From positions 2,608,001 through 2,672,000 of the forward strand of contig NC_009656.1 in NCBI RefSeq assembly GCF_000017205.1: a stretch of 64,000 nt of DNA, read 5' to 3'. The notes under the pieces are model-generated. The model did not search any database and was not told the origin of the DNA. It saw only the letters and a program-made list of their open reading frames with translations. Both the position numbers and the translations under genes were made by a program. This document shows positions 31,985-62,288 of this stretch, piece after piece (within the stretch, counting starts at the first letter, position 1; each line of letters opens with the position of its first letter). The stretch is from Pseudomonas paraeruginosa PA7 (GTDB lineage: Bacteria; Pseudomonadota; Gammaproteobacteria; Pseudomonadales; Pseudomonadaceae).

Positions 31985-32704
31985 ATGATGACCTGCGATC
32001 CCGTCACCGGCGCCTGCCTCCTGCCCGAGCCAGAGTCTGCGCAAAGCGTTGCGCAATCTGGGGTGCACGCCGCTCCAACCGTTCACTACATCGGTGATCC
32101 GATGTGCTCCTGGTGCTGGGGCATCGAGCCGGTGGTCGGCGAGCTGGCGGCTTTCTGCGCCGCCGAGGGCATCGGCTTCGCGCTCACGGTGGGTGGCCTG
32201 CGCGCCGGTGGCGGCGATCCCTGGAACGCGGATTTCATCGAGTTCCTGCGCGCCGAATGGCGACGTATCGGCGAAGTCACCGGCCAGCCGTTCGGCTTCA
32301 CCCTGCTCGATGCGCCGTATTTCGACTATGACACCGAGCCCGCGTGCCGGGCGGTGGTCTGCGCACAGATACTCGGAGCGGACAGCGCGGACCCGAGTGC
32401 CCGGCGTTTCTTCTCCGCGGTACAGCGCAGGTTCTACGTCGAGGGCAGGGACCCCAAGGAAACCTCGTTCTATGCCGACCTTTGCGAGGAGGCAGGCCTG
32501 GACTTCGGGGCCTTCCGTTCGCTGTTCCTGTCCGCCGAGGCCCGGCAGGCGACGCAAGCCGCTTTCCTACGTTGCAGGCAGTGGGGCGTGCGTGCGTTCC
32601 CGACGCTCGCTGTCGAGCGCCGCGGGGAACTGCTGTTGCTCGCCGCCGGCTTCACCACCCGTGAGCAGGTGCTGTCGCGGCTGCGGCGGGGCCTGGCTGG
32701 CTGA
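31985..32704 (+). CDS. DsbA/FrnE-family thioredoxin-fold protein
   Basis: The 239-residue protein shows HYIGDPMCSWCWGIEPVVGEL near residue 33, a CxxC site (C-S-W-C) typical of the DsbA-family FrnE-like branch, and ends with GVRAFPTLAVERRGELLLLAAG, the cis-Pro loop region. There is no clear signal peptide, so it is probably cytoplasmic. It may be an oxidoreductase or an isomerase-type enzyme; the substrate is unknown. The ATG at 31985 has an AGAGAG site; the upstream ATG at 31877 overlaps the previous gene. Confidence 0.82.
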   Translation: MMTCDPVTGACLLPEPESAQSVAQSGVHAAPTVHYIGDPMCSWCWGIEPVVGELAAFCAAEGIGFALTVGGLRAGGGDPWNADFIEFLRAEWRRIGEVTGQPFGFTLLDAPYFDYDTEPACRAVVCAQILGADSADPSARRFFSAVQRRFYVEGRDPKETSFYADLCEEAGLDFGAFRSLFLSAEARQATQAAFLRCRQWGVRAFPTLAVERRGELLLLAAGFTTREQVLSRLRRGLAG

Positions 32705-32831
32705 GTCGTGTCCCGATGGATCGGTGGCGGATTCTGGGCCGAAAGAAGACAAGGCCTACCGTTTTGCGTGCCGCGCGCCGACGTATCGGGTAATCTCTCG
32801 GGCAAATGAACCAGCACTAGTGAAGCGAACG

Positions 32832-33374
32832 ATGGGTTTTGAACAACTTGCCGAGCTGAGGGACCGTCTGCGGGCGCAGGCGGAACAGGCGAAACCGGCC
32901 AAATCGGCTCAATCCAAAGCCAAGGCTTCTCCAGGGCGTGCGGCGAAGAAGCGCGAACCCGTGGATCCCGAGGTCGAGGCCATCTGGCGGTTGCAACGGC
33001 ATTTTCCGCTGGCGTTTCCGAAGAATCCTGCGCCAAAGGTGCCGCTCAAGCAGGGCATCCTCGAGGATGCTCAGCAGCATCTGGAGAGCCTCGGTATCAC
33101 CGCCGAGCAACTCAAGCAGGCCATCGCCACCTGGTGCCAGGGCAACCGCTACTGGTCCTGCATGGTGGAAGATGCGCCGCGCCTGGACCTGCAGGGCCAG
33201 GTAGCGGGCAAGGTCACTGCCGAGCAGGCGGTCTACGCGAAGCGCCAGGCCTCGCGCCGCCAGCGTGACCAGATGCGCGAGAAGCGCGCCAAGCGGGCGC
33301 GTGCCGCTACCGAAAGCGCAGCGGACAAGCTCGAAAGCGATGCCGACGCGCAGCCCGACTCAAGCGCTTTCTGA
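32832..33374 (+). CDS. proQ: ProQ/FinO-domain RNA-binding protein
   Basis: The 180-residue protein has a basic Lys/Ala-rich N-terminal region (about 10-40), a ProQ/FINO core (about 45-130: EAIWRLQRHFPLAFPKNPAPKVPLKQGILED, then CQGNRYWSCMVEDAPRLDLQG) and a basic C-terminal helix (KRQASRRQRDQMREKRAKRAR). ProQ proteins bind structured RNAs globally, including small RNAs and 3' ends. It corresponds to PAO1 PA2582, by memory. It is the last core gene before the accessory sulfatase locus. Confidence 0.92.
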   Translation: MGFEQLAELRDRLRAQAEQAKPAKSAQSKAKASPGRAAKKREPVDPEVEAIWRLQRHFPLAFPKNPAPKVPLKQGILEDAQQHLESLGITAEQLKQAIATWCQGNRYWSCMVEDAPRLDLQGQVAGKVTAEQAVYAKRQASRRQRDQMREKRAKRARAATESAADKLESDADAQPDSSAF

Positions 33375-33475: not shown

Positions 33476-34918
33476 TCAGGAAGGTTCCACGCTCCCTTGC
33501 GCTGGACCAGGGGGCTGCTGGAAAGGAGGTTCCGGCGGCGGGTTGTTTCGCGGCGCCGACTGCCTGGCCAGGGCGTCGAGCAACTCGCGGTGCTGCTCCG
33601 GTCCGATGGGGTAGTACCAGGTGAGCAGGAACACGCCCGTGGTGCCCAGCAGCGGCACCAGCGACATCGTGGCCACGAGCAGTTGCAAGGTATCCGGCGA
33701 CTGCACGCTGTTGGCCACGAAGCCGATTTCTCCCAGGACCATGCCCAGGGCGCCAGCGGCGAGGCCGAGCGCGGCTTTCTGGGCGAAGATCACCGTGCCG
33801 ACGATCAGCGACTCGGTGCGGATGCCCGAGCGCCACTGACCATACTCCACGGTATCTGGGATCATCGCCCAGAAGCACACGGCGTTGGCGCTGACGCCGA
33901 TGGCGATGAAAGTCAGCACGATCATGAGCCCGGCGTAGCCGGCAGCGCTGCACAGGAACCAGAGCGCGAAGCCCAGGCCATAGAACGCCGTACCGAGCAG
34001 CAAGGCGAAACGCTTGCTGCAGCGGCGCGCCAGCTGTGCCCAGAGCGGGGCGGCGAGCGCCGCGACGACAGCCATCAGGGCGAGCGCCGTGCCGCCGAAG
34101 TCGGCGTCGTTGCGCACGTACTTGAAGTAGTAGAGAAGGTTCTTCGAGAAGAAGGTGCCGGCGAACGAGTTCATCAGGGCGATGCCGAGCATTAGCAGAA
34201 GAGGCCGGTTGAGCAGCAGCGCGGCGAGTGCGTAGCGCATGCCGGGCCAGGTGTCCGCCGGGGTGTCTTCCTCGCAGGCATCGCCGGACCCTGCCGCCAG
34301 CGCGGCGATCCACAGCATGACGCAGGCGGCGCAGGCGAAGAGCGCGGTCACCAGGCCCCAGGAGTAGGCGCCGCCGCCGAAATAGCGGACGGCTGGCAGG
34401 GTCAGCGCCGACACCGCCATCGCGGCGAGAATGGCGAATACCATGCGGATGCCGGCCATGGTCGCACGTTCTTCGCTGCTGCGGGTCACCCGCGCGTAGA
34501 GCGACGCATAGGGGACCGAGACCAGGGCGAAGAGGGTCCGGAAGGCAAGGTGGGTCGCTGCCGTCAACACCAGCAATTGCGGGCCTTCTCCGCGGGGCAG
34601 CAGGAACATCAGGACGAACGCCACGGCCAGGGGCAGCGCTCCCAGCAGCAGGTAGGGGCGGAAGCGGCCCAGGCGGGTCCGCGTCCGGTCGGCCAGGGCG
34701 CCGATCAAGGGGTCGACGACGGCGTCCCAGATGAGCGCGCTCATGTAGATGAGGCCCGCCGCGTAGGCGGATAGGCCAAGGACGTCGGTATAGAAGAACA
34801 GCAGGAAGAGCGAAGCGATCTGCCAATAGATGTTCACCCCGAAGTCGCCTGCACCCAGAGCGATCTTGCGCATCATCGGAATGCGCTGCTGTGCCATCGA
34901 AGGCGCCCGGTCCATCAT
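33476..34918 (-). CDS. GPH-family glycoside:cation symporter
   Basis: The 480-residue protein has about 12 hydrophobic segments and the glycoside-pentoside-hexuronide family signature ALIWDAVVDPLIGALADRTRTRLGRFRPYLLLGALPLA (about 60-100), with relatives such as MelB and XylP. It should import a sugar glycoside with a cation across the inner membrane. The C-terminal tail is Pro-rich. It is divergent from the formylglycine-generating enzyme gene, from a promoter region with two TetR-type operators, so it is probably the importer for the product of the sulfatases. Confidence 0.88.
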   Translation of the reverse strand: MMDRAPSMAQQRIPMMRKIALGAGDFGVNIYWQIASLFLLFFYTDVLGLSAYAAGLIYMSALIWDAVVDPLIGALADRTRTRLGRFRPYLLLGALPLAVAFVLMFLLPRGEGPQLLVLTAATHLAFRTLFALVSVPYASLYARVTRSSEERATMAGIRMVFAILAAMAVSALTLPAVRYFGGGAYSWGLVTALFACAACVMLWIAALAAGSGDACEEDTPADTWPGMRYALAALLLNRPLLLMLGIALMNSFAGTFFSKNLLYYFKYVRNDADFGGTALALMAVVAALAAPLWAQLARRCSKRFALLLGTAFYGLGFALWFLCSAAGYAGLMIVLTFIAIGVSANAVCFWAMIPDTVEYGQWRSGIRTESLIVGTVIFAQKAALGLAAGALGMVLGEIGFVANSVQSPDTLQLLVATMSLVPLLGTTGVFLLTWYYPIGPEQHRELLDALARQSAPRNNPPPEPPFQQPPGPAQGSVEPS

Positions 34919-35016
34919 TTTCCAACCCTTTGTGATTGCCGTTTCTGGCTATTGTTTTTTCCGTGCCGCGAACCTGGCGTACGGGACTTCACCGGCGGGG
35001 GGACGCCATGATGATA

Positions 35017-35036
35017 AATTATCCATATGGATAATT
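35017..35036. promoter_or_regulatory. TetR-type operator O1 (20-bp perfect palindrome) on the transporter promoter
   Basis: AATTATCCATATGGATAATT is fully symmetric. On the minus strand a TTGACA lies at 35060-35055, 17 bases before the -10 region that overlaps the operator, so a bound repressor would block the transporter promoter. Confidence 0.8.
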
Positions 35037-35111
35037 ACCTGTCGGCTCCTACCTTGTCAATTGCCCGGAGCGACAGGTTGGGCGACGGCGATCCAGTGCA
35101 CGAGACGCGGA

Positions 35112-35140
35112 TTGACAAGCTCTGATGGCTCGAATATCTA
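35112..35140 (+). promoter_or_regulatory. Sigma70-like promoter of the FGE gene
   Basis: TTGACA (35112-35117), 17 bases, then TATCTA (35135-35140). Transcription would start near 35147, downstream of the in-frame ATG at 35125, so translation must begin at 35239. Confidence 0.7.
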
Positions 35141-35155
35141 TCCATCCGGATTTTT
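35136..35155. promoter_or_regulatory. TetR-type operator O2 on the FGE promoter
   Basis: ATCTATCCATCCGGATTTTT keeps the core ATCC-N4-GGAT with weaker flanks. It overlaps the -10 and start region of the FGE promoter in the same geometry as the site upstream of the GH1 gene. Confidence 0.65.
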
Positions 35156-35238
35156 TCTGGGGCGGTGTCGGGCCGCCCACTGTCAGGAATCTCGAAACCC
35201 GGGCAGCGACCGAGGCTGCCGTGTCGAAGGAGCAGGAA

Positions 35239-36192
35239 ATGTCAGGCGAGACCGTCCGGACCCCGGACATGCGGTATCTGCCGGGTGGGGTGTTCCGCAT
35301 GGGCTCGGAACGCTTCTATCCCGAGGAACGCCCCGTACGCCAGGTCAGGGTCGACCCGTTCTGGATCGACGTTACGCCGGTCACCAATCGCCAGTTCGCC
35401 GCCTTCGTCGAAGCCACCGGCTACCGGACCTTCGCCGAGAAGGCTCCGGAGCCGGCGGACTATCCCGGCATGCCGGCGGAAATGGCCAGGGCGGGCTCGC
35501 TGGTCTTCACGCCGGTCAGCGCAGCGGTCGATCTCGCCGATCCCTCTCGCTGGTGGTCGTTCCGCTTCGGCGCCTGGTGGCGCGAGCCGCTGGGTCCCGG
35601 CAGTAGCATCGCCGGCCTCGAGGAGCACCCGGTGGTGCACGTCGCCTACGAGGACGCCGCCGCCTACGCCGCCTGGGTCGGCAAGGCGCTGCCGAGCGAG
35701 GCCGAGTGGGAATATGCGGCGCGGGGAGGGCGGGACGGCGAGGAGTTCGCCTGGGGCGATACGCTCGAACCGGGTGGCCAGATACTCGCCAACTACTGGC
35801 AGGGGCGCTTTCCGCTGGAAAACCTGCTGCTCGATGGCTGGGAGCGGACGTCTCCGGTGGGCGCGTTTCCCGCCAATGGCCATGGCTTGTTCGACATGAT
35901 CGGCAATGTCTGGGAATGGACCGCCGACTGGTTCCGACAGCCGGCCGCAACCGATCGACAGGCTTCGAGCTGTTGCGCCAGCCGCAATCCACGCGGTGGC
36001 CGCGAAGAAGACAGCTACGACCCGGCGCTGCCGGCCCTGCGCATCGGCCGCAAGGTGCTGAAAGGGGGCTCGCACCTGTGTGCGGAGAACTATTGCCAGC
36101 GCTATCGACCGGCGGCGCGGATTCCCCAATCCATCGATACCACCACCGGCCATGTGGGATTCCGTTGCGTGCGACGGGAGCCGCCGGCATAG
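35239..36192 (+). CDS. Formylglycine-generating enzyme (FGE, sulfatase-modifying factor)
   Basis: The 317-residue enzyme oxidises the active-site cysteine of type I sulfatases to formylglycine, using oxygen and copper. The FGE-sulfatase fold is complete: FRMGSERFYPEERPVRQV, HPVVHVAYEDAAAYAAWVGK, PSEAEWEYAARGG, MIGNVWEWTADW and GHVGFRCVR. The two catalytic cysteines are C281 and C286 in GGSHLCAENYCQRYR, the same spacing as C336/C341 in human SUMF1, so this is an active-type FGE. The ATG at 35239 is chosen for its AAGGAG site and because the promoter lies downstream of the earlier ATG at 35125. It is the maturase for the two neighbouring Cys-type sulfatases. Confidence 0.93.
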   Translation: MSGETVRTPDMRYLPGGVFRMGSERFYPEERPVRQVRVDPFWIDVTPVTNRQFAAFVEATGYRTFAEKAPEPADYPGMPAEMARAGSLVFTPVSAAVDLADPSRWWSFRFGAWWREPLGPGSSIAGLEEHPVVHVAYEDAAAYAAWVGKALPSEAEWEYAARGGRDGEEFAWGDTLEPGGQILANYWQGRFPLENLLLDGWERTSPVGAFPANGHGLFDMIGNVWEWTADWFRQPAATDRQASSCCASRNPRGGREEDSYDPALPALRIGRKVLKGGSHLCAENYCQRYRPAARIPQSIDTTTGHVGFRCVRREPPA

Positions 36193-36258
36193 GGCGGCTC
36201 CCGCCACCGGCTCCGGTCCTCTCGCCCCCGCCGGCGAAAGGTCCGGAGCGAGGCTGCG

Positions 36259-37965
36259 TCAGGGTTGCGGAAGGACCGCCATGGGCGGCGCGACGACACC
36301 CACGTCCCTGGCATAGCTTCCCCAGGCGGCTTCCAGCTGCTTCAGCCGGTCCGGCATCTCGGCGGAGAGATCATGGGTTTCACCCGGGTCCCGGGCCACA
36401 TCGAACAGGCGCCAGGCGCCATTGCCGGTATCGGTGATCTTCCAGTCGCCCTGGCGGAGGGAGCGCGAGCCGAAGACTTCGGTGCCGATCGCGTCGTCCG
36501 GTCCGTAGACGTACTCGCGCCGACCCTTCAGGTAGGGCACCCAGCTCCGCCCGCGTAGCGGCTCGATCGCGCGGCCCTGGAAACTACCGTCGGTCAGCGG
36601 AATGCCAGCGAATTCAAGGAGAGTCGGGGTGACGTCCATTATCGAGAGGAAGGCCGTCGAGACGGCGCCGGACCTGCCCAGGCCGGGGTACCGAAGAAAC
36701 GCGGCATTGCGGGTACCGCCCTCGGTGGCATAGTACTTGATCAGCCAGGACGGCGCGCTGCCAGCCTGGGCCCAGCCGGGGCCGTAGCCGAAGTAGGACG
36801 TGGCGTTGCCGCGATTCTCCAGGCGGTTGTCGGCACTGGCCGGCATTTCCTTGGTGGTGGCGGTATCGCGGCCTTCGGGACCGTTGTCGGAAAGGAACAG
36901 GATGAGTGTGTCGTCCAGCTCGCCGCTGCGCTTGAGTGCGCTGACGACACGGCCGACGTTCTGGTCCAGGCGGTCCACCATCGCGGCATAGACTTCCATG
37001 TCGCGGGCGGCGAGTCGTTGCCGTTCCGGATCCAGCTCGTCCCAGCGCCGGGTCATGACCATTGGCCGGACCTGCGTGCTCGGAGCCAGCAGGCCGAGTC
37101 CCGCCTGCCGGGCGAGACGGCTCTCGCGGAGCCGGTCGTAGCCCTGGTCGTAGCGTCCCTTGTATTTCTCGATGACTTCCCTCGGCGCCTGCAATGGCCA
37201 ATGGGGAGCGGAGAAAGCCAGGTAGGCGAAGAATGGCTTGGCCCCTTCGTCACGCCGGCCGAGAAATTCCAGCAGCTTGCTGGTGAAGAAGTCGGAGGAA
37301 TAGAAACCCCGCGGCAGTTGCGCGAGCCGTACGCCATCCTCGGTATAGACCGCACCGCCGGTGTTCTGCTCCGGCGCCTTGTTCAGGTCCGCGGCGAAGT
37401 CCAGGCCGTAGTGGTTGTGGGAGCCCTGCAGCAGCGCGAAGCTGTGCTGGAAGCCGCGGGCGTGCGGATCCTGTTGCGGGGCGAGGCCCATGTGCCACTT
37501 GCCGGCCATCATGGTGCGGTAGCCGGCGGCGGCGAAGCGCTCCGCCAGGGTGACCACGTCCGGCCGCAGATAGCCTTCGTAGCCTGGTCTGCCTTTCTGG
37601 TTGGGCGCCACCCGTTCGGCCATGGTGCCGAAGCCGGCGCGGTGGCTGTCGGTGCCGGTCAGCAACATGGCGCGCGAGGGCGAGCAGGTGGGAGCGGTGT
37701 GGAAGCCGGTGAAGCGGACGCCCTCCCTGGCGAGGGCGTCCAGGTTCGGCGTGTCGATCTCGCCGCCGAACGCGCCAAGGTCGGAAAAGGCCAGGTCGTC
37801 GGCGACTATGACCAGTACGTTCGGCTGCCGGGCCCCCGCCTGGACGGACGCCGACATGATCGCGCCGGCGAGCAGAACCGCCATGGCGAGTGGCGTTTTC
37901 CCCATCTTCCGGCCATCCGCCGAATGGCGCCTGGCTGGTTTTTCCTGTTGTCCTGGTCGGTGCAT
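36259..37965 (-). CDS. Secreted Cys-type arylsulfatase
   Basis: The 568-residue protein has a long n-region and Sec signal peptide (MGKTPLAMAVLLAGAIMSASVQA after about 20 residues). The alkaline-phosphatase-fold sulfatase motifs follow: metal-binding NVLVIVADDLAFSDLG, the modification site C94-S-P-S-R (formylglycine precursor) and GKWHMGLAPQ, then a calcium/catalytic LFLSDNGPEG. It resembles AtsA-type arylsulfatases. It should hydrolyse a sulfate ester in the periplasm. The ATG at 37965 has a GAGGAA site. It is divergent from the second sulfatase, with two operators in the gap. Confidence 0.92.
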   Translation of the reverse strand: MHRPGQQEKPARRHSADGRKMGKTPLAMAVLLAGAIMSASVQAGARQPNVLVIVADDLAFSDLGAFGGEIDTPNLDALAREGVRFTGFHTAPTCSPSRAMLLTGTDSHRAGFGTMAERVAPNQKGRPGYEGYLRPDVVTLAERFAAAGYRTMMAGKWHMGLAPQQDPHARGFQHSFALLQGSHNHYGLDFAADLNKAPEQNTGGAVYTEDGVRLAQLPRGFYSSDFFTSKLLEFLGRRDEGAKPFFAYLAFSAPHWPLQAPREVIEKYKGRYDQGYDRLRESRLARQAGLGLLAPSTQVRPMVMTRRWDELDPERQRLAARDMEVYAAMVDRLDQNVGRVVSALKRSGELDDTLILFLSDNGPEGRDTATTKEMPASADNRLENRGNATSYFGYGPGWAQAGSAPSWLIKYYATEGGTRNAAFLRYPGLGRSGAVSTAFLSIMDVTPTLLEFAGIPLTDGSFQGRAIEPLRGRSWVPYLKGRREYVYGPDDAIGTEVFGSRSLRQGDWKITDTGNGAWRLFDVARDPGETHDLSAEMPDRLKQLEAAWGSYARDVGVVAPPMAVLPQP

Positions 37966-38071
37966 ATCGGGTTCCTCTGTGTGTTGTTGTTATTTGGCGT
38001 GCGCAGGGACCTGTACCTGGCTGGTGCGGTGTTTCGCGTCCGGGGCGGGGTGGTCGGCATGTGTTGGTCGA

Positions 38072-38091
38072 AATTATCCGTTCGGATAGTT
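38072..38091. promoter_or_regulatory. TetR-type operator O3 on the arylsulfatase promoter
   Basis: AATTATCCGTTCGGATAGTT keeps the ATCC-N4-GGAT core. On the minus strand TTGACA (38114-38109) lies 17 bases before AACTAT, which overlaps the operator. Confidence 0.75.
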
Positions 38092-38155
38092 GCTGTCGTC
38101 CCGGTGCTTGTCAATGCCTGCCCGGCGCCAGGAGGGTGGACTCTGGGAGTTCGGC

Positions 38156-38184
38156 TTGCCATAAATTATCCGTTTGGATATTTT
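38156..38184 (+). promoter_or_regulatory. Sigma70-like promoter of the second sulfatase
   Basis: TTGCCA (38156-38161), a 17-base spacer, then TATTTT (38179-38184). Operator O4 fills the spacer. The start codon is 114 bases further on. Confidence 0.6.
38164..38183. promoter_or_regulatory. TetR-type operator O4 on the second sulfatase promoter
   Basis: AATTATCCGTTTGGATATTT keeps the ATCC-N4-GGAT core and sits between the -35 and -10 elements of the plus-strand promoter. Confidence 0.75.
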
Positions 38185-38297
38185 GCCCTGAATGCGGGCT
38201 CCGTGAGTCCCCCAGGTCATCGCCGTCCGGAGGTGGCTCGACGGAGTTCGTTCCTTCATGCGGCCGCCTTGGCGGCCCCTGGACCGAGCCGAAAAAC

Positions 38298-40214
38298 ATG
38301 CCGCAGATCGACCGCCGTCGACTTCTCCAGTGGGGCTCCATGTTCCTGGCGTCTTCCCTGACCGGTGTTTCCCTGGCCTCGACGAGTCGCAGGCAATCCC
38401 GGCCCAACATCCTGTGGCTGGTCAGCGAGGACAACTGTCCTTTCATCGGCGCCTACGGCGATCCACTGGCCAGGACGCCTACCCTGGACAGGCTCGCCCA
38501 CGAGGGCATCCTCTACCGCAACGTATATTCCAACGCGCCGGTCTGCGCGCCCTCGCGCTTCGGCATCCTTACCGGGGTGTACGCCGAGTCCTGCGCCCCC
38601 GCCAACCACATGCGCGCCCGGGCCAGGCTGCCGGATGTCTTGAAGACCTATCCGCAGTATCTTCGCGAGGCCGGCTACTACTGCAGCAACAACGCCAAGA
38701 CGGACTACAACTGCGATGTCGATCCGTCCGCCATCTGGGACGAATGCAGCGGCAGCGCGCACTGGCGCTCGCGCCCACGGGACACGCCGTTCATGGCGGT
38801 GTTCAACCACGAGACGACGCACGAGTCGCGAATCTTCTTCGACAGGGGCGGCGCGGTGCGGCCGCAGGACATCCGGGTACCGGCCTACCTGCCGGACACT
38901 CCAGCCATCCGCCAGGACTTCGCTTCCTACTACAACCTCATGGAGCGCCTGGACGGTCAGATCGCCGAACGCCTGGCCGAGCTGGAGGAGGATGGCCTGG
39001 CCGAGGACACCATCGTTTTCTATTACTCGGACAACGGCGGCGTGCTTCCGCGCAGCAAGCGCTATTGCTACGAAGAGGGGCTGCGCTGCGCGTTGATCGT
39101 GCGGGTCCCGAAGAAATGGGCGCACCTGGTGGACATGCCGGCGGGTAGCCAGGTCGACACGCCGGTGACCTTCATCGACCTGGCTCCCAGCGTGCTGGCC
39201 CTGGCCGGGTTGCCCGCTCCAGCGCAGATGCAGGGCTCGGCGCTGTTCGCCGTCGCCGAGCCGAGGACGCAGCGCCATGCCTTCGGCATGCGCAACCGCA
39301 TGGACGAGCGCTACGACTTCGTACGAACGGTCAGCGATACCCGCTATCGCTACATCCGTAACTACCTGCCGCACCGCATCTGTGGCCAGTACCAGGCATT
39401 CGGCTGGATGGCCGGGGGCTACCGGGACTGGTTGCGCCTGTTCCAGGAGGGCCGGCTCTCGCCGCAGCAGGCGGCATTCTTCGGTGAACGGCCCCACGAG
39501 GAACTCTACGACCTCCGGCAGGATCCGGACGAGGTGGCCAACCTGGCGGATTCGCCCGCGCATCGCGAAAAGCTCGAGGAACTGCGGGGTGTCCTCGACC
39601 GGCACATGCTGCAGATCAACGACAATGGTTTCATCCCCGAGGGTTCGCCGCTGGAGGGCTATCTCGAGAGCCGGAAGCCGGGCGCCTACCCACTGCAACG
39701 GATCATGCGCCTGGCCGTGATCGCCGCGCGTCGCGATCCGGCCTCGCTGGACGTGCTGATCGCCAGTCTCGACGACGAGAACGAAGTCATCCGCTTCTGG
39801 GCCGCGAGCGGGCTGCTGATGTTGCGCGAGCGGGCAGCGCCGGCGCGCGAAAGACTGTTGAAGACGCTCCACGAAGACACCTCGCAGACGCGCATCGTCG
39901 CCGCCGAGGCCCTGGTTCACCTGCATGAGGAAGGACCGGCGATCGCGTTGCTTGCCGGCTACCTCGACCCTGGGCGGGACAAGCCGCTGCGCCTGCAGGC
40001 GATCAACGCGCTGACCTATTGCGGCGCGCCGGCGCGAGCGGTGCTGCCGGCGCTCAAGACCTGCGCCGAGGACGACGACCAGGACGTGCGCAGTTCCTCC
40101 GAGTACCTGGTGCGGGTGCTGGAAGGGCGTTTCGATCCGGAGAAACCGGTGTTCGACCTGTGGTTCTTCCTGCGCCAGCGTGTCGTGGAGGCGATTAGGG
40201 CACGGCTTGGCTGA
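38298..40214 (+). CDS. Tat-exported Cys-type sulfatase with C-terminal HEAT-like repeats
   Basis: The 638-residue protein starts with a twin-arginine-like signal (D-R-R-R-L-L-Q, residues 5-11, then a hydrophobic stretch). The sulfatase domain (about 36-480) has NILWLVSEDNCPFIGAYGD, the modification site C83-A-P-S-R and VFYYSDNGGVLPRSKRY. This is the heparan-sulfamidase-like branch of sulfatases, not the AtsA type. Residues about 495-625 carry short paired helices (LDDENEVIRFWAASGLLML and similar) that look like HEAT repeats, perhaps for protein binding. It should also need the FGE. The start has only a weak ribosome site; the Tat signal fixes it. Confidence 0.88.
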   Translation: MPQIDRRRLLQWGSMFLASSLTGVSLASTSRRQSRPNILWLVSEDNCPFIGAYGDPLARTPTLDRLAHEGILYRNVYSNAPVCAPSRFGILTGVYAESCAPANHMRARARLPDVLKTYPQYLREAGYYCSNNAKTDYNCDVDPSAIWDECSGSAHWRSRPRDTPFMAVFNHETTHESRIFFDRGGAVRPQDIRVPAYLPDTPAIRQDFASYYNLMERLDGQIAERLAELEEDGLAEDTIVFYYSDNGGVLPRSKRYCYEEGLRCALIVRVPKKWAHLVDMPAGSQVDTPVTFIDLAPSVLALAGLPAPAQMQGSALFAVAEPRTQRHAFGMRNRMDERYDFVRTVSDTRYRYIRNYLPHRICGQYQAFGWMAGGYRDWLRLFQEGRLSPQQAAFFGERPHEELYDLRQDPDEVANLADSPAHREKLEELRGVLDRHMLQINDNGFIPEGSPLEGYLESRKPGAYPLQRIMRLAVIAARRDPASLDVLIASLDDENEVIRFWAASGLLMLRERAAPARERLLKTLHEDTSQTRIVAAEALVHLHEEGPAIALLAGYLDPGRDKPLRLQAINALTYCGAPARAVLPALKTCAEDDDQDVRSSSEYLVRVLEGRFDPEKPVFDLWFFLRQRVVEAIRARLG

Positions 40215-40275
40215 GGGTGGGAGTTTCCCGGCCGGATGACAGCGGCCGGGATATGTCGCGGGAAACGTACCGTGC

Positions 40276-41637
40276 TCAGCGAACGCCACGCGCCCGCAGG
40301 CTCGCCGGGCTGAAGTAGTCTTCGTTCGGGGCCGGCTGGCTGTAGTCGGTGGTGCCGGGCTGCTCGTTATCCAGCCATTGCACCATGTAGCGGCGCGACT
40401 GCAGGTCATGGAAGACATCCAGTATCGCCCCGGTGGCCGGCAGCTCGTAGAGTCCCGCCAGGTAGGCCATCGACACCCGCCACAGGTCGCCCCGGCTGTC
40501 GTACTGGTCCACCACCGCCACGCTCCAGCTGTCCTCGTCGAGGTACAGGGTGCGCTTGCTGTAGATATGGCGAGCGCCGGGCTTGAGCCTGCCTTCCACC
40601 ACCCAGACCCGGTGCAGCTCGTAGCGGGTGTATTGCGGATCGAGATGTCCGGGCTCGATCAGATCCTTGTATTTCACCTGGGGACTGCCGAGCCGGTAGT
40701 TGTTGTAGGGGATGTAGATTTCCCGCTTGCCTACCAGCGACCAGTCGAAGCGGTCCGGCGCGCCGTTGAACATGTCCGTATCGTCCATGGTGCGCAGCCC
40801 GTCGGTGCTGCTGCCGGGGGTGTCGTAGGCGAACAGCGGGGCGCGGCGGACGCGGCGCTGTCCCGGGTTGTAGGTCCAGGCCTGGCGGGGTTCCTTCGCC
40901 TGGTCGAGGGTTTCGCGCACCAGGTTCGCCGCGCCGGCCATGCGCGCTGGCGCCTTGGTCAGCGTCTGGTAGTAGAACAGGGTGTTGTTCAGGCCGGCGA
41001 AGCTGCCGCCCTGCTGGTAGTACTTGAATAGCATGTTGTACTGGGTGGTGACCGGTGTGAAGCTACCGTCCCGCTGCACGGCGGCTTCCGAGGAGTTACG
41101 CACGAAGTAGCTGCCGCGGTAGCGGGCGATATGGTTCCACAGCGCTTCCAGCCCGTTGGCCGGGATCGGAAAGGGCACCCCGCCGAACGCCTCGGTGAAG
41201 CCGTTGCCGCCCTCCGCCAGCCTGGCGCTGGTGGCGTTGCGAAAGACGTTGTCGTAGACCCACTGCGGCGCTGCGCCGGTGCGCCGGGTGGGATAGACCG
41301 GCATCTGGAAGCTGTCCGGGTAGGCCTTGAACAGGGCGATCTCGCCAGGCGTCAGGTTGGCCTGGTACTGCGCCAGGTTGGCCTGGGTGATGGTGAACAG
41401 CGGCTTGTCCGCGGCGAACGGGTCGGGGCGGTGGCGTCCGGGAACATAGCCCGCCGGTGGCTGGGTCAGGCCGCCCTCCCAGGCCGGGATGGTGCCGGCG
41501 GCATTGCCGGCTCTCTCCGCGCCCAGGGGCGTCAGGTCGTTCTTCAGCCGCACCGCTTCCCCGGCGGGGACCGCGGCCAGGGCGGCGCTGGTGGCAAGCG
41601 CCAGCACGGCGCCGAGCAGGGGGTACAGGTTGCGCAT
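40276..41637 (-). CDS. DUF1329 periplasmic protein
   Basis: The 453-residue protein has a Sec signal peptide (MRNLYPLLGAVLALATSAALAA) and the DUF1329 signature: LTPLGAERAGNAAGTIPAWEGGLTQPPAGY at the mature start, then GVPFPIPANGLEALWNHIARYRG and YIPYNNYRLGS. Such proteins have a LolB/outer-membrane-lipoprotein-sorting-like fold and are almost always next to a DUF1302 gene, often in steroid or lipid-like substrate loci. Their exact role is unknown. A GGAGAG site precedes the ATG. It is the last gene of the GH1-DUF1302-DUF1329 run. Confidence 0.87.
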   Translation of the reverse strand: MRNLYPLLGAVLALATSAALAAVPAGEAVRLKNDLTPLGAERAGNAAGTIPAWEGGLTQPPAGYVPGRHRPDPFAADKPLFTITQANLAQYQANLTPGEIALFKAYPDSFQMPVYPTRRTGAAPQWVYDNVFRNATSARLAEGGNGFTEAFGGVPFPIPANGLEALWNHIARYRGSYFVRNSSEAAVQRDGSFTPVTTQYNMLFKYYQQGGSFAGLNNTLFYYQTLTKAPARMAGAANLVRETLDQAKEPRQAWTYNPGQRRVRRAPLFAYDTPGSSTDGLRTMDDTDMFNGAPDRFDWSLVGKREIYIPYNNYRLGSPQVKYKDLIEPGHLDPQYTRYELHRVWVVEGRLKPGARHIYSKRTLYLDEDSWSVAVVDQYDSRGDLWRVSMAYLAGLYELPATGAILDVFHDLQSRRYMVQWLDNEQPGTTDYSQPAPNEDYFSPASLRARGVR

Positions 41638-41690
41638 GGTTGCTCTCCATGGAGAGGTCCGCCGGGCCGTCAGGGCACGGCGGGACCGGG

Positions 41691-43640
41691 TCAGAAGGAG
41701 TACTTGAGATTGAGGCCGAGGTTGTCGCGGTCGCGCATGTTGTTGCGCTGCCCGGCGCCGTAGAACTCGGTGTATTGCAGTTCCGCCTCGAGAGAGGCGC
41801 GGTAGCTGGCCCTGAGGCCGAGGGTGTGGGCCTTGCGGCCTTCGATGAAGTTGCCGGCCGAGGAGGAGTTGCCCTTGAAGTCCTCCTTGTAGACCAGGTA
41901 TGGCGAGAGGTTGATGCCGGCCACCACGTCGTTCCAGGTACCCGACAGTTGCAGGGTGTAGCCGTAGGCGTTGCGGTCGACCTGGCCGTCGCGGCCGAAG
42001 CCGGCGCCCTTGTTGGCCCCGCTGGCGTAGTGGCGCACGCTGCCATCGAAGGCGGTGTACTTGAGACTGCTGCCGCGCAGGTGATCGCCAGCCAGTTCGG
42101 CCACCCCCGCCAGGCTGTCGAAGGACAGCGCCGGGCCGAAGTTGTAGAGGGCGCCGATGGAGGTGTTGAAGGACTCCACGCGTTCATAGTTGTGGACCGT
42201 GGAGCTTCCCAGGCTGATCGGCTGGCCGCCGACATTCACGATCTGGCCGGCATTCAGCCGGGGAGCCTGGCTCATCAGATCGCCGAGCAGATCGTCGGTT
42301 GCGGCGATGCCGATCGGCAGGTTCGGCCTGTAGGCCAGTTCTCCGAATACCGTGGCATTGCCCAGCGTGGTGTTGAAGCTCACGCCGAACATGCGGATAT
42401 CCTCGGGATACTCGCGCTGGGCAACCAATTGGTTGGTCACATCGGCGACCGTCGCGCCGTTGATCAGTCGCAATGCCTGGGATGCGGCCGCATTGCCACC
42501 GCGAGCTGCGGCGGCGAGCTCGGCGTAGCTACCGAAGCCCCCGAGCGAGGCCAGCCGGTCGAGGTTCACTCCGGCATAGGCGTCGTCCAGGTGGGCGGTC
42601 ACCGAGGGTTCCTTGGCGTGATAGTTGACGAAATAGAAGCCGAACTCGGTGGAGTTGAGCGATTCCGCGAAGTAGCGGAAGGCCACGCCGAACTGCCCGT
42701 CGTTGCGCGCGTTGATATCCGGGCCGACGCTGGCGACCTTGAGCACGCCGTTGCCGTCCAGGTAGGGATTGCCCTGCAGGCCGGCGACATGGTTGCCCGC
42801 CAGTTGGCGATACAGGTCCTGGAACTGGGGGTTGGCCAGCGAAGCGACCCTTGCGTAGGCCGTGTTGCCGCCATCGGCGAACAGGTCGGTGCCCGAGTAG
42901 AAGGTGCCTACCGGGTCGATCCGGGTTTCCTTCCAGTTCCACTGGTAGAAGGCATCCATCGACAGGTTGTCGGTCAGGCCCGCATTGAAGCTGATCGCCT
43001 CGATCGGGATCAGCACCTCCTTCACCTCGGAACCCGGCAGGTGGAAGGCCGAGGCGTCGACCGGGTTGGTGGTGTTGACGCCGCCGCGATAGAACAGGCC
43101 TTCGCCCCAGTTGAAGACCTGGCGGCCGAGGCGGGCTGTGAGTGGTCTACCGGCGACATCCCAGTTGCCATAGACGTAGGCGTCTAGAATTTCCGCGCGG
43201 TGCCCGGCGACATCCCGCGTCGCATCGGTGAAATGGTCGTCGCGGGGATACGACTGGCTGGGCAGGCGCGGCGAGTCGTTGTCGTAGTAGTCGTTGCGCT
43301 TGTCCATGATCTGCGTGTCGTAGAAGGTCGAGCCACGCAGGAACAGGCCATGGTTGCGCCAGGAGGCGCCGAGGTCGGAGGTGATCTTGTAGACCTCGGA
43401 GACCAGGCCGGGATCGAAGTTGCGGTTGCCGTCGTTGCCGTTGATGTCGTCGTTGTTCTTGTCGCGGCCCTGGACGCGCCACAGCGCGCCGTAGGAGATG
43501 GTGGTGTCCAGCGATCCGGAGACTTCGTTGTCGAGAAAGCTGAACTCCACTGCCTGGGCCTGTTCCGCCAGGCACAGCGGCAGCAGTCCGGCGAAAGCCA
43601 GGGCGGTACGCACTGGCGGCTTGAGAGAGAAGGTACCCAT
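41691..43640 (-). CDS. DUF1302 outer-membrane-type protein
   Basis: The 649-residue protein has a signal peptide ending AEQAQA before VEF and the DUF1302 start FSFLDNEVSGSLDTTISYGALWRVQG. The rest alternates short beta strands and ends with an aromatic-rich C-terminus (LGLNLKYSF), as in outer-membrane beta-barrels. The family is thought to form channels for hydrophobic or bulky substrates, with DUF1329 as partner. The ATG at 43640 has an AAGGGG site, and the frame upstream is non-typical. It lies 156 bases after the GH1 gene, with no operator in between, so it is probably read from the same promoter. Confidence 0.87.
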   Translation of the reverse strand: MGTFSLKPPVRTALAFAGLLPLCLAEQAQAVEFSFLDNEVSGSLDTTISYGALWRVQGRDKNNDDINGNDGNRNFDPGLVSEVYKITSDLGASWRNHGLFLRGSTFYDTQIMDKRNDYYDNDSPRLPSQSYPRDDHFTDATRDVAGHRAEILDAYVYGNWDVAGRPLTARLGRQVFNWGEGLFYRGGVNTTNPVDASAFHLPGSEVKEVLIPIEAISFNAGLTDNLSMDAFYQWNWKETRIDPVGTFYSGTDLFADGGNTAYARVASLANPQFQDLYRQLAGNHVAGLQGNPYLDGNGVLKVASVGPDINARNDGQFGVAFRYFAESLNSTEFGFYFVNYHAKEPSVTAHLDDAYAGVNLDRLASLGGFGSYAELAAAARGGNAAASQALRLINGATVADVTNQLVAQREYPEDIRMFGVSFNTTLGNATVFGELAYRPNLPIGIAATDDLLGDLMSQAPRLNAGQIVNVGGQPISLGSSTVHNYERVESFNTSIGALYNFGPALSFDSLAGVAELAGDHLRGSSLKYTAFDGSVRHYASGANKGAGFGRDGQVDRNAYGYTLQLSGTWNDVVAGINLSPYLVYKEDFKGNSSSAGNFIEGRKAHTLGLRASYRASLEAELQYTEFYGAGQRNNMRDRDNLGLNLKYSF

Positions 43641-43796
43641 GGCGAAACACCCCTTGGTCTGATCATTGTTATCGGGCCTGTGGCCCTGTTGTTGTCGATC
43701 CGGCGTGTAGCGTCGTCGCTTCGTCGCTCGGTGACGGAGCGCCGTCACAGGCGCGTCGGGCCGCACCGCGAGACGGTGCTGCCCGGCGGCGGTATT

Positions 43797-45128
43797 TCAG
43801 TGCTTCGGTGCGTCGAGGGCGGCGTTGGCGCGAATGCACTCGGCGAAGTAATGCAGGCTGCGTTTCGGGGTCCGCGACAGGTCGTTGCGATCGACATGGA
43901 TGAGCCCGAAGCGCTTGGCGAAGCCCTGGGCCCACTCCCAGTTGTCGGTCGCCGACCAGTAGAACAGGCCTTTCAACCGAGCTCCTTCCGCCTGGGCGGC
44001 CTGGGCCGCTTTCAGGTAGCTGGCCAGGTATCCGATCCGCTGGTGATCCTCCACCACGCCGTCGCGAGGCGCGGGGTCCGGCACGGCGAAACCGGTCTCG
44101 GTGATGTACAGCTCGGGGGCGTCGTAGTCGCGGTGCAGCCTGAGGAGCATTTCGGTAAGGCCATCGGGCTCGACATGGAAATAGTCGGTGCGCGGCAACT
44201 GCGCTGGCGCTTCGCCCTGGGCGACGCCGAGGGAGCCGCCGCTGTCCGGGCGAACGTAGATGCGGCTGTAGTAGTTGAGGCCGAGGAAGTCCGGTTTCAC
44301 CGCGATCAGCTGCATGTCGCCTTCGCGCACCAGCGGTGCCACCAGCCGGTCGACGGGCGCCGGATAGCCCTTGCCGTAGAGGGGATCGACGAAGGCGCGG
44401 TTCCACAGTGCGTCCACCAGGTGGACCTGGGTGTCGTAGCGCTGCCCATGCTCGGCGCGCACCGGCTGCAGGTTCACCGTGGTACCGATGCGCGGCCGTC
44501 CCGGCAGGCTTGCCCGCAGGGCCTGGAACGCCAGGCCCTGGGCCAGGTTCTGGTGATGGATGGCGGCGAAGGCGGCACTCGCGGAGTCGAGTGCCGGGGC
44601 ATGGACCTGCGCGGCATAGCCGCGTAGCGCGACGCTGTTCGGTTCGTTGAGGACGATCCACTGGTCGATGCGATCGCCCAGCCTGTCGGCGACGACCTCG
44701 GCGTAGTCGGCGAAGCGCTGGCAGATGTCGCGATCACGGAAGTCGCCGGCCCAGGTCGGCACGTCCCAGTGGAACAGGGTCGGCCAGGGGGTCAGGCCGC
44801 GTTCGAGCATCGCATCGACCATCCGTTCGTAGACCTCCAGCCCCGCGGCGCTGGCCGGTCCAGGACCGTTCGGCTGCACCCGGGGCCAGGCGATGGAAAA
44901 GCGGAAAGCCTGGACGCCGGCGTCGGCAAGTAGGGCTAGGTCTTGCGGGTAGCGCTCTTCGAAACCCGTGCAGAGCGCATTGGTCGAGCCGTCCAGCACG
45001 CCGCCGCGCTCGTCGCAGAACAGGTCCCAGTTGCTGCGGCCGCGGCCGTTGCGGCTCTCGGTCTGGGCGGCCGAGGCGGCTACCCCCCAGATGAAACCGG
45101 GATTGAAGGGGGCGGGGGATGGCGTCAT
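43797..45128 (-). CDS. GH1-family beta-glycosidase
   Basis: The 443-residue enzyme has the (beta/alpha)8 GH1 pattern: FIWGVAASAAQTE at the start, FRFSIAWPRVQPNG, then the acid/base Glu E162 in VLNEPNS and the nucleophile Glu E344 in YITETGF. The usual ITENG is ITETG here (Asn to Thr). The presence of the acid/base Glu argues against a myrosinase. There is no signal peptide, so it should act in the cytoplasm on a glycoside brought in by the GPH transporter. An AAGGAG site precedes the ATG at 45128. It is the first gene of the minus-strand GH1-DUF1302-DUF1329 unit. Confidence 0.92.
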   Translation of the reverse strand: MTPSPAPFNPGFIWGVAASAAQTESRNGRGRSNWDLFCDERGGVLDGSTNALCTGFEERYPQDLALLADAGVQAFRFSIAWPRVQPNGPGPASAAGLEVYERMVDAMLERGLTPWPTLFHWDVPTWAGDFRDRDICQRFADYAEVVADRLGDRIDQWIVLNEPNSVALRGYAAQVHAPALDSASAAFAAIHHQNLAQGLAFQALRASLPGRPRIGTTVNLQPVRAEHGQRYDTQVHLVDALWNRAFVDPLYGKGYPAPVDRLVAPLVREGDMQLIAVKPDFLGLNYYSRIYVRPDSGGSLGVAQGEAPAQLPRTDYFHVEPDGLTEMLLRLHRDYDAPELYITETGFAVPDPAPRDGVVEDHQRIGYLASYLKAAQAAQAEGARLKGLFYWSATDNWEWAQGFAKRFGLIHVDRNDLSRTPKRSLHYFAECIRANAALDAPKH

Positions 45129-45487
45129 GGCAAGCTCCTTTTTTCTGGTTGTGTGGCGTGACGGTTCGACGCCGCTAGGCGCCGGGCGGGGAGACGAGAC
45201 GGAGAGGGCGCGTCGCGCCACGATGCTGGGCGAGGGAGGTGGCGCTCTCTGCTGTGGCGAACGGAGTGCGCGGAGGGAAGAGCGTCGGACATCTGGTTCC
45301 TGCCTTTCCGAGCCTGTTGTTGTTATTGCCCGTCCGATGCCGAGGCCGGCGGAAGAGGATGAGATCGGAGGGAGTCATTAAATTATCCGACCGGATAGAT
45401 ACCTGGCTGAAATGGTATTGTCAATGGGAGGGGACCTACGCCAGACTCCGGACCATCCAATCAGATGGGGCAGGTAGAAGCGGACCT
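45129..45487. promoter_or_regulatory. Divergent control region between GH1 and tetR
   Basis: The 359-base gap has no gene. It contains operator O5 and the GH1-operon promoter. A separate tetR promoter is not evident, but tetR autoregulation through O5 is likely. Confidence 0.7.
45381..45400. promoter_or_regulatory. TetR-type operator O5 on the GH1-operon promoter
   Basis: AATTATCCGACCGGATAGAT keeps the ATCC-N4-GGAT core. On the minus strand TTGACA (45424-45419) is 17 bases before TATCTA, which overlaps the operator, as at O2. Confidence 0.75.
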
Positions 45488-46105
45488 ATGAATCGACGAG
45501 TAGCCAAGCAGGAACGCAGCGAGCAGACCCGGACGGACATTCTGCAGACGGCGCTGGATCTCTTCTCGACGCGAGGGTTCGCCGCGGTGAGCCTGCGCGA
45601 CATCGCCGAGCGGGTAGGGGTCAACCACGCGATGATCCGCTATCACTTCGGCAGCAAGGAGGAGCTCTGGCGGGACAGCGCGGCCTATCTGTTCGAGCGC
45701 CTGGCCGAGGAGATTCCGGCTCCGGACCTGGCGAGCGAGGCGGATCCGGTGGCGGCGCTCAAGCGCTACATCAAGGACTACGTCCACTACTGCGCCCGGC
45801 ACCCGGAACACGCGCGCCTGATGGTGCAGGAGTCCATCGTGGCGTCGGACCGGCTGCAATGGGTGTCCGAGAACTACATCCGCCCCAATCATGCCCGGAC
45901 CCTGAAGCTGATCGAGGGCGCCAGCCTGCCTGCCGGGCTAACCGGGATGGACCCGGTCATGCTCCTGTACATGGTGGTGGCGATCGCCCAGATGCCCTAC
46001 CTGGTCACCGCCGAACTGCAGTTCTCCCACGAGCGCGATGTACTGACGAACGAAGCGATCGAGGCGCACGCCGACGCGGTGGTGAAATTCATCTTCCGTG
46101 ATTGA
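45488..46105 (+). CDS. TetR-family repressor of the sulfatase-glycosidase locus
   Basis: The 205-residue regulator has an N-terminal TetR helix-turn-helix (TDILQTALDLFSTRGFAAVSLRDIAERVGVNHAMIRYHFGSKEELW, about 16-62) and a C-terminal ligand-binding domain of the CecR-like size (FIFRD end). The ATG at 45488 is chosen because the HTH starts about 15 residues later. It is divergent from the GH1 operon. The shared 20-bp operators in the three control gaps of the locus fit a local repressor that also controls itself. The inducer, perhaps a sulfated glycoside or its product, is not known. Confidence 0.9.
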   Translation: MNRRVAKQERSEQTRTDILQTALDLFSTRGFAAVSLRDIAERVGVNHAMIRYHFGSKEELWRDSAAYLFERLAEEIPAPDLASEADPVAALKRYIKDYVHYCARHPEHARLMVQESIVASDRLQWVSENYIRPNHARTLKLIEGASLPAGLTGMDPVMLLYMVVAIAQMPYLVTAELQFSHERDVLTNEAIEAHADAVVKFIFRD

Positions 46106-46319: not shown

Positions 46320-46393
46320 GGCTGAGTAGCAGAGTGGTTATGCACCGGATTGCAAATCCGTGAACGCCGGTTCGATTCCGACCTCAGCCTCCA
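46320..46393 (+). tRNA. tRNA-Cys(GCA)
   Basis: The 74-base cloverleaf starts GGCTGAGTAGCAGAGTGG and ends CCTCCA. The anticodon loop ATTGCAAAT gives GCA. The T arm CCGGTTCGATTCCG is normal. A terminator follows at once. Confidence 0.98.
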
Positions 46394-46691: not shown

Positions 46692-47135
46692 ATGCGCTCG
46701 CTTACACGAATGCTATGCGCCGGCCTGCTGCTCGGGAGCATGGCGAGCCAGGCAATCGCCGCAGGGATCGACGATATTTTCCACTCGCAGGATACCGACA
46801 AGGACGGCGCGCTTTCGCTCGAGGAGGCGCGCGCTGCCGCTCCGGAAGCTTTTCGCCGCCTTGATCGTGACGGCAATGGCATCGTCGACGCGGATGAAAT
46901 CGCGGCGAACATGGTTGCCGAGGCCGGGCCGGGGATGGTCATTCCGCCGGTGACACTGGCCGCGGTGTCGAAGAGCACTGTCGAGCTTTGGGATGGCAAC
47001 CGCGATGGCAAGGTCACCGGGCAGGAATATTCGGATTCGGCCGTCACCCTGCTGATGCTGGCCGATGCGGATGGCGACCGCCGGGTGACCCGCGAAGAGT
47101 TGCAGCGTTTTCGTGGTGAGCCCGCCGCTCGCTGA
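46692..47135 (+). CDS. Secreted EF-hand calcium-binding protein
   Basis: The 147-residue protein has a signal peptide (MRSLTRMLCAGLLLGSMASQAIAA) and four EF-hand-like loops: DTDKDGALSLEEA, DRDGNGIVDADEI, DGNRDGKVTGQEY and DADGDRRVTREEL. The first three keep the D-x-D/N-x-D/N-G pattern; the fourth has Arg in place of Gly and may bind weakly. It is probably periplasmic calcium storage or signalling. It is different in length from the EF-hand sensor EfhP known in PAO1, so I do not give it that name. The gene is followed by a terminator and is a single unit. Confidence 0.83.
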   Translation: MRSLTRMLCAGLLLGSMASQAIAAGIDDIFHSQDTDKDGALSLEEARAAAPEAFRRLDRDGNGIVDADEIAANMVAEAGPGMVIPPVTLAAVSKSTVELWDGNRDGKVTGQEYSDSAVTLLMLADADGDRRVTREELQRFRGEPAAR

Positions 47136-59907: not shown

Positions 59908-59994
59908 GCCCGGATGGCGAAATCGGTAGACGCAAGGGACTTAAAATCCCTCGGGGGCAACCCCGTGCCGGTTCGACCCCGGCTCCGGGCACCA
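59908..59994 (+). tRNA. tRNA-Leu(TAA)
   Basis: The 87-base class II cloverleaf starts GCCCGGATGGCGAAATCGG and ends GGGCACCA. The anticodon stem-loop GGGACTTAAAATCCC gives TAA. The long variable arm (CTCGGGGGCAACCCCG) fits leucine. An integrase gene points at its 3' end, so the tRNA 3' half is the likely attachment site. Confidence 0.98.
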
Positions 59995-61899: not shown

Positions 61900-62215
61900 G
61901 GTCGGAGCCTCCCTCCTGCTCGCTCAGCAGGGCGCCGACTTCAGCCGCCAGGTCTTTCCCGCTCGGGTGTGCCGCTGCGAAATCGACAAGTCGCCGCAAA
62001 AGCCCCTCGCTGACCACCACATGGCCTGCGGGGACGGCTCTGGTGTTCCAGGTCTCGGCAATAAGCGGTCTCGGCTCGTCTCCACATGCGTAGCGTGCAA
62101 CTCCGCTCGCGACGCATCCTTTGGATGCGCACACCGCAACTATTCCGCCGTCTTCCAACTCGACGAAACCGGCTTCTCCTCCGCAGTACGGGAAGGGTTT
62201 CAGTTCTTCAGCCAT
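61892..62215 (-). CDS. Lar-like (restriction alleviation) zinc-ribbon protein with altered first Cys pair
   Basis: The 107-residue protein starts MAEELKPFPYCGGEAGFVE and has GGIVAVCASKGCVASG and LIAETWNTRAV, which match the Lar zinc-ribbon layout K-P-C-P-x-C-G-G ... C-x4-C ... W-N-x-R. The first Cys of the usual CPFC is Phe here (PFPYC), so zinc binding may be impaired. Lar proteins reduce type I restriction of phage DNA. The ATG at 62215 follows the small frame above it. Confidence 0.65.
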   Translation of the reverse strand: MAEELKPFPYCGGEAGFVELEDGGIVAVCASKGCVASGVARYACGDEPRPLIAETWNTRAVPAGHVVVSEGLLRRLVDFAAAHPSGKDLAAEVGALLSEQEGGSDPV

Positions 62216-62288
62216 TGTCTTTTTCCATTTTCTCCGGCCAGCCCAATGGCAGCCCGTCATCCCGCGCCAGGTCCTGGACATTGATCAT
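62208..62288 (-). CDS. Possible 26-residue phage peptide
   Basis: The frame MINVQDLARDDGLPLGWPEK then MEKDNG ends 8 bases inside the start of the Lar-like gene (ATGGCTGA overlap). The overlap and composition suggest a coupled small gene, but the length is too short to be sure. Confidence 0.35.
   Translation of the reverse strand: MINVQDLARDDGLPLGWPEKMEKDNG

Follow-up and report, generated by a model that had tools for sequence, protein, structure and literature searches.

A predicted TetR-controlled locus, possibly for a sulfated beta-D-galactoside, in an accessory island of Pseudomonas paraeruginosa PA7

Described systems offer partial models for a locus of eight intact genes at 33476-46105 of a 64,000-nucleotide stretch of the P. 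paraeruginosa (previously P. aeruginosa) PA7 genome (C1:2608001-2672000, hereafter the window). In the lambda-carrageenan locus of Pseudoalteromonas distincta U2A, which is described as containing formylglycine S1 sulfatases, an S1_8 sulfatase clears sulfate for an exo-beta-galactosidase; this is a polysaccharide pathway with GH150, GH110 and GH2 enzymes and periplasmic breakdown (PMC12549532). DUF1302 and DUF1329 proteins, on the other hand, have been connected with detergent-like or terpenoid compounds: the P. putida pair PP_0765/PP_0766 was reported to be essential on Tween 20 (PMC10866462), and the DUF1329 protein of the Castellaniella AmeA/AmeB cluster was reported to be needed for good growth on monoterpenes (PMC6394551). 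The PA7 locus contains the same two families side by side. In contrast to these reported pairs, which are linked with resistance-nodulation-division (RND) efflux-type transporters, the PA7 pair is partnered with sulfatases, a GPH symporter and a glycosidase. Unlike the U2A locus, it combines a cytoplasmic GH1 enzyme, a GPH importer, DUF1302/DUF1329 and a TetR, and has no depolymerase. The component families are known, and so is the logic of desulfation followed by glycosidase action, from marine sulfated-galactan loci. As far as the literature was searched, a Pseudomonas gene set of this kind, which includes DUF1302/DUF1329 and belongs to a dispersed TetR regulon, appears to be new, and no paper describing it was found, judged by titles and abstract openings. 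The interpretation somewhat favored here is that the locus is a catabolic regulon repressed by TetR, with an amphipathic sulfated beta-D-galactoside as its substrate; it builds on gene content, motifs, conserved promoter-operator units and synteny.

All eight genes were open and matched their Pfam families above the cut-offs in profile searches, in agreement with the initial annotation of this DNA, which had named each of them from the sequence alone. Its coordinates were corrected, with likely starts at 35239 (formylglycine-generating enzyme, FGE), 38298 (S2), 43640 (DUF1302), 45128 (GH1) and 45488 (TetR). A minus-strand open reading frame of 720 amino acids (aa) at 38256-40418 was considered spurious because it had no family match. 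The genes, in order, and the borders of the locus are as follows:

33476..34918, minus strand: GPH/MelB-type inner-membrane symporter, 480 aa (PF13347, TIGR00792)
35239..36192, plus strand: FGE, 317 aa (PF03781; open frame from 35125)
36259..37965, minus strand: sulfatase S1, AtsA-like (PF00884, CSPSR)
38298..40214, plus strand: sulfatase S2, S1_8-like, 638 aa (PF00884 in two pieces, CAPSR)
40276..41637, minus strand: DUF1329 protein, probably periplasmic, 453 aa (PF07044)
41691..43640, minus strand: DUF1302 protein, probably of the outer membrane, 649 aa (PF06980)
43797..45128, minus strand: GH1 beta-glycosidase, 443 aa (PF00232)
45488..46105, plus strand: TetR-family repressor, 205 aa (PF00440)
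32049-33374: ProQ-domain gene, left border of the locus
46320-46393, plus strand: tRNA-Cys, right border of the locus

With the exception of tetR, all transcription units have a promoter that is overlapped by the palindrome TTATCCnnnnGGATAA. Upstream of the GPH, S1, GH1-DUF1302-DUF1329 and FGE units, the layout is TTGACA, a spacer of 17 or 18 bases and a -10 box, with the palindrome lying over the -10 box. The predicted operators are:

35016..35036: Operator 1, a perfect palindrome over the -10 box of the GPH promoter, with TTGACA on the minus strand at 35060-35055
35138..35153: imperfect FGE operator over the -10 box, with three mismatches to TTATCCNNNNGGATAA (TTGACA at 35112, 17 bases, TATCTA)
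38071..38091: Operator 2, over the -10 box of the S1 promoter, with TTGACA on the minus strand at 38114-38109
38163..38183: Operator 3, in the spacer of the S2 promoter (TTGCCA at 38156, 17 bases, TATTTT)
45380..45400: Operator 4, over the -10 box of the GH1-DUF1302-DUF1329 promoter (TTGACA on the minus strand at 45424-45419, 17 bases, TATCTA)

With the longer pattern, the FGE operator matched at 35136-35156 with two mismatches. The pattern AAATTATCCnnnnGGATAnwT (AAATTATCCNNNNGGATANWT) has four exact sites in the window, all within the locus, and 100 shuffles gave no match to it, even when two mismatches were allowed. In the whole PA7 genome, exact sites of AATTATCCNNNNGGATA were confined to the locus, two sites matched with one mismatch, and four of the five sites of the shorter TATCCNNNNGGATA fell within the locus. 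Because the pattern was first spotted there by eye, its occurrence in the locus is a given; the test consists of its scarcity elsewhere and its recurrence in relatives. Exact TTGACA occurs only four times on both strands of the PA7 locus, each time at an operator site. Across PA7 and five related loci, an exact TTGACA was located 25-28 bases upstream of the operator in 12 of 14 sites, comprising the matches within two mismatches and the PA7 FGE site with three; one further match (L018 5968) had no TTGACA nearby and was left out. Random positions had TTGACA at the right distance in 16 of 25,562 cases, all due to the four operator TTGACA themselves. A general promoter scan, which is weak evidence alone, found four promoters against 1.6 expected. 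The six regulon loci (the window locus, L015-L018 and L149) each contained one to four palindromes at up to two mismatches, whereas 20 shuffles per locus gave means of 0 to 0.4, the largest single shuffle having three (L015).

Operator sites stand before the sulfatase/FGE, GPH-GH1 and DUF1302-DUF1329 units alike. The sulfatases and FGE are tied to DUF1302/DUF1329 and the GH1 module by the combination of TTGACA and palindrome that recurs before these genes. The TetR protein (TetR_N PF00440, 54.5 bits, 1e-14) was 80-87% identical in four relatives. At the level of sequence, one TetR regulon over the locus is well supported, and TetR would be expected to bind the palindromes. The earlier proposal of a single functional unit under one TetR is consistent with these shared promoter-operator units.

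Relatives of the cluster were sought with GH1 in 25 genomes of the genus (E 1e-30) and 398 genomes of the family (1e-60). Within the genus only PA7 itself matched (1 of 25), and the family gave six matches: PA7, four at 77-79% identity and one at 36% (G371), which had no other cluster part. Searches at 1e-100 in 398 genomes of the genus of G184 and 18 of that of G050 yielded two matches each and no new cluster; all four samples overlap. The close relatives are Pseudomonas sp. BN417 (G149), P. chlororaphis PCL1601 (G184) and two further genomes, G050 and G142. In all four, tetR is divergent from GPH-GH1-DUF1302-DUF1329, with proteins 70-87% identical to those of PA7 (identities quoted are from a comparison of eight loci). 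This core is common to the five genomes, PA7 being the exception in order, with its GPH gene apart at the other end of the locus, whereas the sulfatases and FGE vary. FGE, S2 and S1 occur around the core in G142, and S2 and FGE in BN417; the stretches read in G050 and G184 contained no relative of S1, S2 or FGE. The initial annotation had placed the sulfatases at the core; they are better regarded as a variable part, since two of the five clusters showed no relatives of either sulfatase or of FGE on the stretches read. At E 1e-60, S2 was detected in four of the 398 family genomes (PA7, G142, BN417 twice, and G365). A contig scan kept 79 loci, many of them short contigs; among the 31 checked for other genes (L029-L059), the module was present in two, L029 and L030, which are the same places as L015 and L018. 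Beside the BN417 cluster lies a gene of the GAD-like/Tdi1 immunity type of type VI secretion systems (L015 12914-13576).

The promoter-operator unit recurred in the four other Pseudomonas clusters and in a second BN417 locus on another contig (L149 3810-11838), which contains DUF1329, DUF1302, a second S2 copy, one more sulfatase and an FGE sharing 74% identity with the PA7 enzyme. Both likely transcription units of this second locus carry the unit, no relative of this TetR was found on the stretch, and control is apparently exerted in trans. In the G365 locus (L148 9586-19901), several sulfatases and an FGE are accompanied by an OprB-like porin and a protein of the metallo-beta-lactamase fold; the stretch read had no GH1, and there were no palindromes at up to two mismatches. 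The free variation in module content, and the occurrence of S2, FGE and other sulfatases in G365 without GH1 on that stretch, would be expected if a glycoside module and a sulfatase/FGE module were unrelated neighbors merely sharing an island site. Such an arrangement is very improbable, as the same promoter-operator unit stands before both modules in PA7, BN417 and G142, and also at the second DUF1302/DUF1329/sulfatase/FGE locus of BN417.

Both sulfatases have the Cys-type C-x-P-x-R motif of S1-type (formylglycine) sulfatases, CSPSR in S1 and CAPSR in S2. PF00884 matched S1 at 205.7 bits (1.3e-60) and S2 in two pieces that each passed the cut-off (63 and 59.5 bits); of the 12 PF00884 match rows in PA7, two are these pieces. 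The FGE (PF03781, 268.5 bits, 8.5e-80) contains the Cys pair in SHLCAENYCQR, and the pattern S-x-x-C-x4-C-x-R, which we take to be the catalytic Cys motif, was present in five of the five FGEs compared, as in an aerobic FGE. By eye, the S1 N-terminus has a hydrophobic Sec-like export signal and that of S2 a twin-arginine signal, which is clearest in the BN417 paralogue. The two proteins belong to different branches, as had been suggested at the outset. The best Protein Data Bank (PDB) chain for S1 was the arylsulfatase 1hdh (1.4e-175), presumably P. aeruginosa AtsA and the closest solved relative. AtsA is a cytoplasmic, sulfur-regulated enzyme of sulfur starvation, whereas S1 has an export signal and the operator of this regulon. 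PA7 has a paralogue 52.8% identical to S1 at G000:C1:278275-279522 (L003), which is probably AtsA itself. For S2, the best chain was the S1_8C sulfatase 9bba (2.5e-86), followed by other S1_8 chains (1.5e-64 to 2.8e-61) and then SGSH (3.2e-26); by PDB chains, S2 is closest over its catalytic domain to characterized S1_8 members. S1_8C is reported to take the 2-sulfate off terminal beta-linked galactose so that a beta-galactosidase can act (PMC12549532), and from its similarity to S1_8C, S2 is a candidate galactose-2-sulfatase. The C-terminal part of S2 is HEAT-like, and residues 480-605 (window 39735-40112) resemble alphaRep (HEAT-like repeat) chains.

The likeness of S1 to AtsA, together with the lack of a detectable galactose kinase branch in PA7 to use the sugar, would fit a locus mainly for sulfur scavenging, in which the main task of the sulfatases would be to release sulfate from a mixture of sulfate esters, the glycosidase part being secondary. 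This explanation is improbable: it is the glycoside module that forms the conserved part, with relatives of S1, S2 and FGE unseen beside it in two of five clusters, and the palindrome and tetR that the units have in common are both local.

The GPH protein is a GPH symporter by TIGR00792 (302.8 bits, cut-off 231.35); it matched MFS_2 PF13347 (282.7 bits, 5.3e-84) and aligned to MelB 4m64 at 4.8e-46. GH1 (PF00232, 345.8 bits, 3.8e-103) has its catalytic glutamates in LNEP and TETG, invariant in all five proteins, and no signal peptide was seen by eye. It scored below the curated cut-off of the beta-glucosidase family BGL (TIGR03356; 423.3 against 478.5 bits). DUF1329 (PF07044, 519.5 bits, 7.3e-156) and DUF1302 (PF06980, 547 bits, 8.5e-164) are encoded by adjacent genes. 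Predicted models of DUF1302 and DUF1329 had mean pLDDT (predicted local distance difference test) values of 33.7 and 40.9, too poor to judge a barrel or LolA fold. By analogy with the published pairs, these proteins may form an entry system, and an amphipathic cargo is proposed because those pairs were tied to Tween 20 and monoterpenes. The steroid link first suggested for this locus reduces to a general association of DUF1302/DUF1329. A sphingolipid link via SphA was dropped because SphA came up in the literature in connection with COG4313 channels, not DUF1302; sulfatide is retained solely to illustrate what a sulfated galactoside can be.

That a sulfated glycoside is the general class of substrate, as initially proposed, agrees with these results; the more specific guess of a beta-glucoside is not supported by them, and neighboring genes of the relatives point to galactose. 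Five further genes follow DUF1329 in the G050 operon, encoding DgoK, 2-keto-3-deoxy-6-phosphogalactonate (KDPGal) aldolase, a galactonate dehydratase that scored 686 bits against a cut-off of 311, a short-chain dehydrogenase/reductase (SDR) sugar dehydrogenase and an SMP-30 lactonase. The De Ley-Doudoroff route of galactose oxidation (DgoK, DgoA, DgoD) adjoins the cluster in this genome, and G142 has the same SDR (81%) directly after DUF1329. DgoK was present in 11 of 30 chosen genomes (none of six in the genus of PA7, one of 12 in that of G050 and 10 of 12 in that of G184). The sole copy among these 12 genomes of the G050 genus is that of G050, inside this cluster; G142 and G184 have DgoK located away from the cluster. 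Galactonate genes have also been reported in island RGP72, to which the PA7 locus is assigned below by gene order: five D-galactonate catabolism genes, listed as absent from PA7, in strain Zw26 (PMC12369383, Table 1), and galactonate genes in strain CR1 (PMC6372532). These may correspond to the five G050 genes. The dgo genes in relatives, the galactonate genes reported in RGP72 of two strains and the proximity of S2 to S1_8C make a beta-glucoside less likely, and these sequence comparisons suggest that a beta-galactoside is the likelier substrate.

Several observations weigh against the proposed galactoside regulon. GH1 is nearest to enzymes named beta-glucosidase, and MelB-type galactose binding is not indicated in the GPH protein because MelB D19, D124 and W128, presumably galactoside-recognition positions, are replaced by N, S and A. 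A full dgo block occurs only in G050 of the five clusters, with the SDR alone in G142, and PA7 lacks this pathway, having no DgoK match and only distant galactonate dehydratase relatives (33% at best). The core exists also without S2, for which G050 and G184 gave no match at E 1e-60. The S1_8 subfamily is described as also including 2-O-sulfoxylose and N-sulfoglucosamine sulfatases (PMC12549532). The operators are predicted ones, and the bare palindrome is not specific, because TATCCNNNNGGATA sites occur also in genomes without the cluster (three in G018, seven in G365 and none in G009). Outside the clusters, the five cluster genomes had 13 TATCCNNNNGGATA sites, not counting the second BN417 locus, which were treated as chance; no cluster-gene relatives were found beside the four examined (PA7 5271464, G184 C22, G149 C143 and G142 4546492). 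The naming of the GH1 relatives, the lack of DgoK in PA7 and the lack of a complete dgo block on the stretches read in four of the five clusters would suit a regulon of the same logic for glucose or another hexose (an aryl, steryl or plant beta-glucoside sulfate), with the dgo genes as an independent addition. This possibility is unlikely, although less so than sulfur scavenging. It has to account for dgo genes or their dehydrogenase directly after DUF1329 in two species of different genera, for the galactonate genes reported in RGP72 of two strains, and for the galactose-2-sulfatases as the nearest relatives of S2.

For the preferred reading, a sulfated beta-D-galactoside regulon, we infer the following biochemical steps, as well as binding by TetR, the direction in which DUF1302 transports and the identity of the sugar. 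Without inducer, which would be the substrate or a product, TetR would sit on the palindromes over the -10 boxes and keep the promoters closed, as the site geometry suggests. FGE would convert the active-site Cys of S1 and S2 to formylglycine in the cytoplasm, after which S2 would be exported by the twin-arginine (Tat) route and S1 probably by Sec. DUF1302 in the outer membrane and DUF1329 in the periplasm would bring the compound in, S1 and S2 would strip its sulfate groups in the periplasm, the GPH symporter would import the desulfated galactoside, and cytoplasmic GH1 would separate galactose from the aglycone. Relatives that have dgo genes could then convert the galactose via galactonate to pyruvate and glyceraldehyde 3-phosphate. 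PA7 is without the DgoK branch; therefore, its gain may be only sulfate and aglycone. Glucosinolate desulfation was also considered and not adopted, because the neighboring genes point to galactose, and carrageenan or agar use was rejected, as there is no endo-acting galactanase or depolymerase family among the eight genes.

A broader view, offered tentatively and held to be rather doubtful, is that a single TetR governs a dispersed regulon in which DUF1302/DUF1329 pairs serve as the outer-membrane entry for sulfated galacto(lipid)-like amphiphiles. Sulfatases, FGE, the GH1 module and the dgo block would be exchangeable parts that share one promoter-operator unit, spread in BN417 over two contigs, and PA7 would desulfate and deglycosylate without using the sugar, feeding on sulfate and aglycone. 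The DUF1302/DUF1329 pair is poorly understood, and the common promoter-operator unit connects it with sulfatases and a glycosidase, which makes the question of its cargo directly testable with defined sulfated galactosides. The locus also suggests how a non-marine Pseudomonas might exploit sulfated sugars of a type otherwise described mostly in marine bacteria.

The PA7 genome paper places RGP72 (PSPA7_2622-2633) close to a tRNA and lists no features of interest for it (PMC2809737, Table 3). By gene order, the eight genes fit its left part, and tRNA-Cys adjoins. The locus offers a testable substrate class for this island, and a full-text literature search gave no mention of six PSPA7 RGP72 locus tags. 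The accessory status proposed in the initial annotation is supported by this published island and by the restriction of GH1 to one of the 25 genomes of the genus. Near-identical left-flank DNA was absent from the 24 other genomes of the genus, the best match being 72% over about 440 bases. A plasmid origin was rejected, as 14 plasmid records gave only short matches of ~70-83% in the FGE region, and so was integration at tRNA-Cys with a repeated tRNA end, since exact copies of the last 14, 16 or 20 bases of this tRNA gene did not recur elsewhere in the window. Just past tRNA-Cys, a small EF-hand protein is encoded at 46692-47135, perhaps in the same plasticity region. Farther on, beyond tRNA-Leu (59908-59994), the GC content falls to 0.49 at 62001-64000, marking the start of another island, by position perhaps RGP26.

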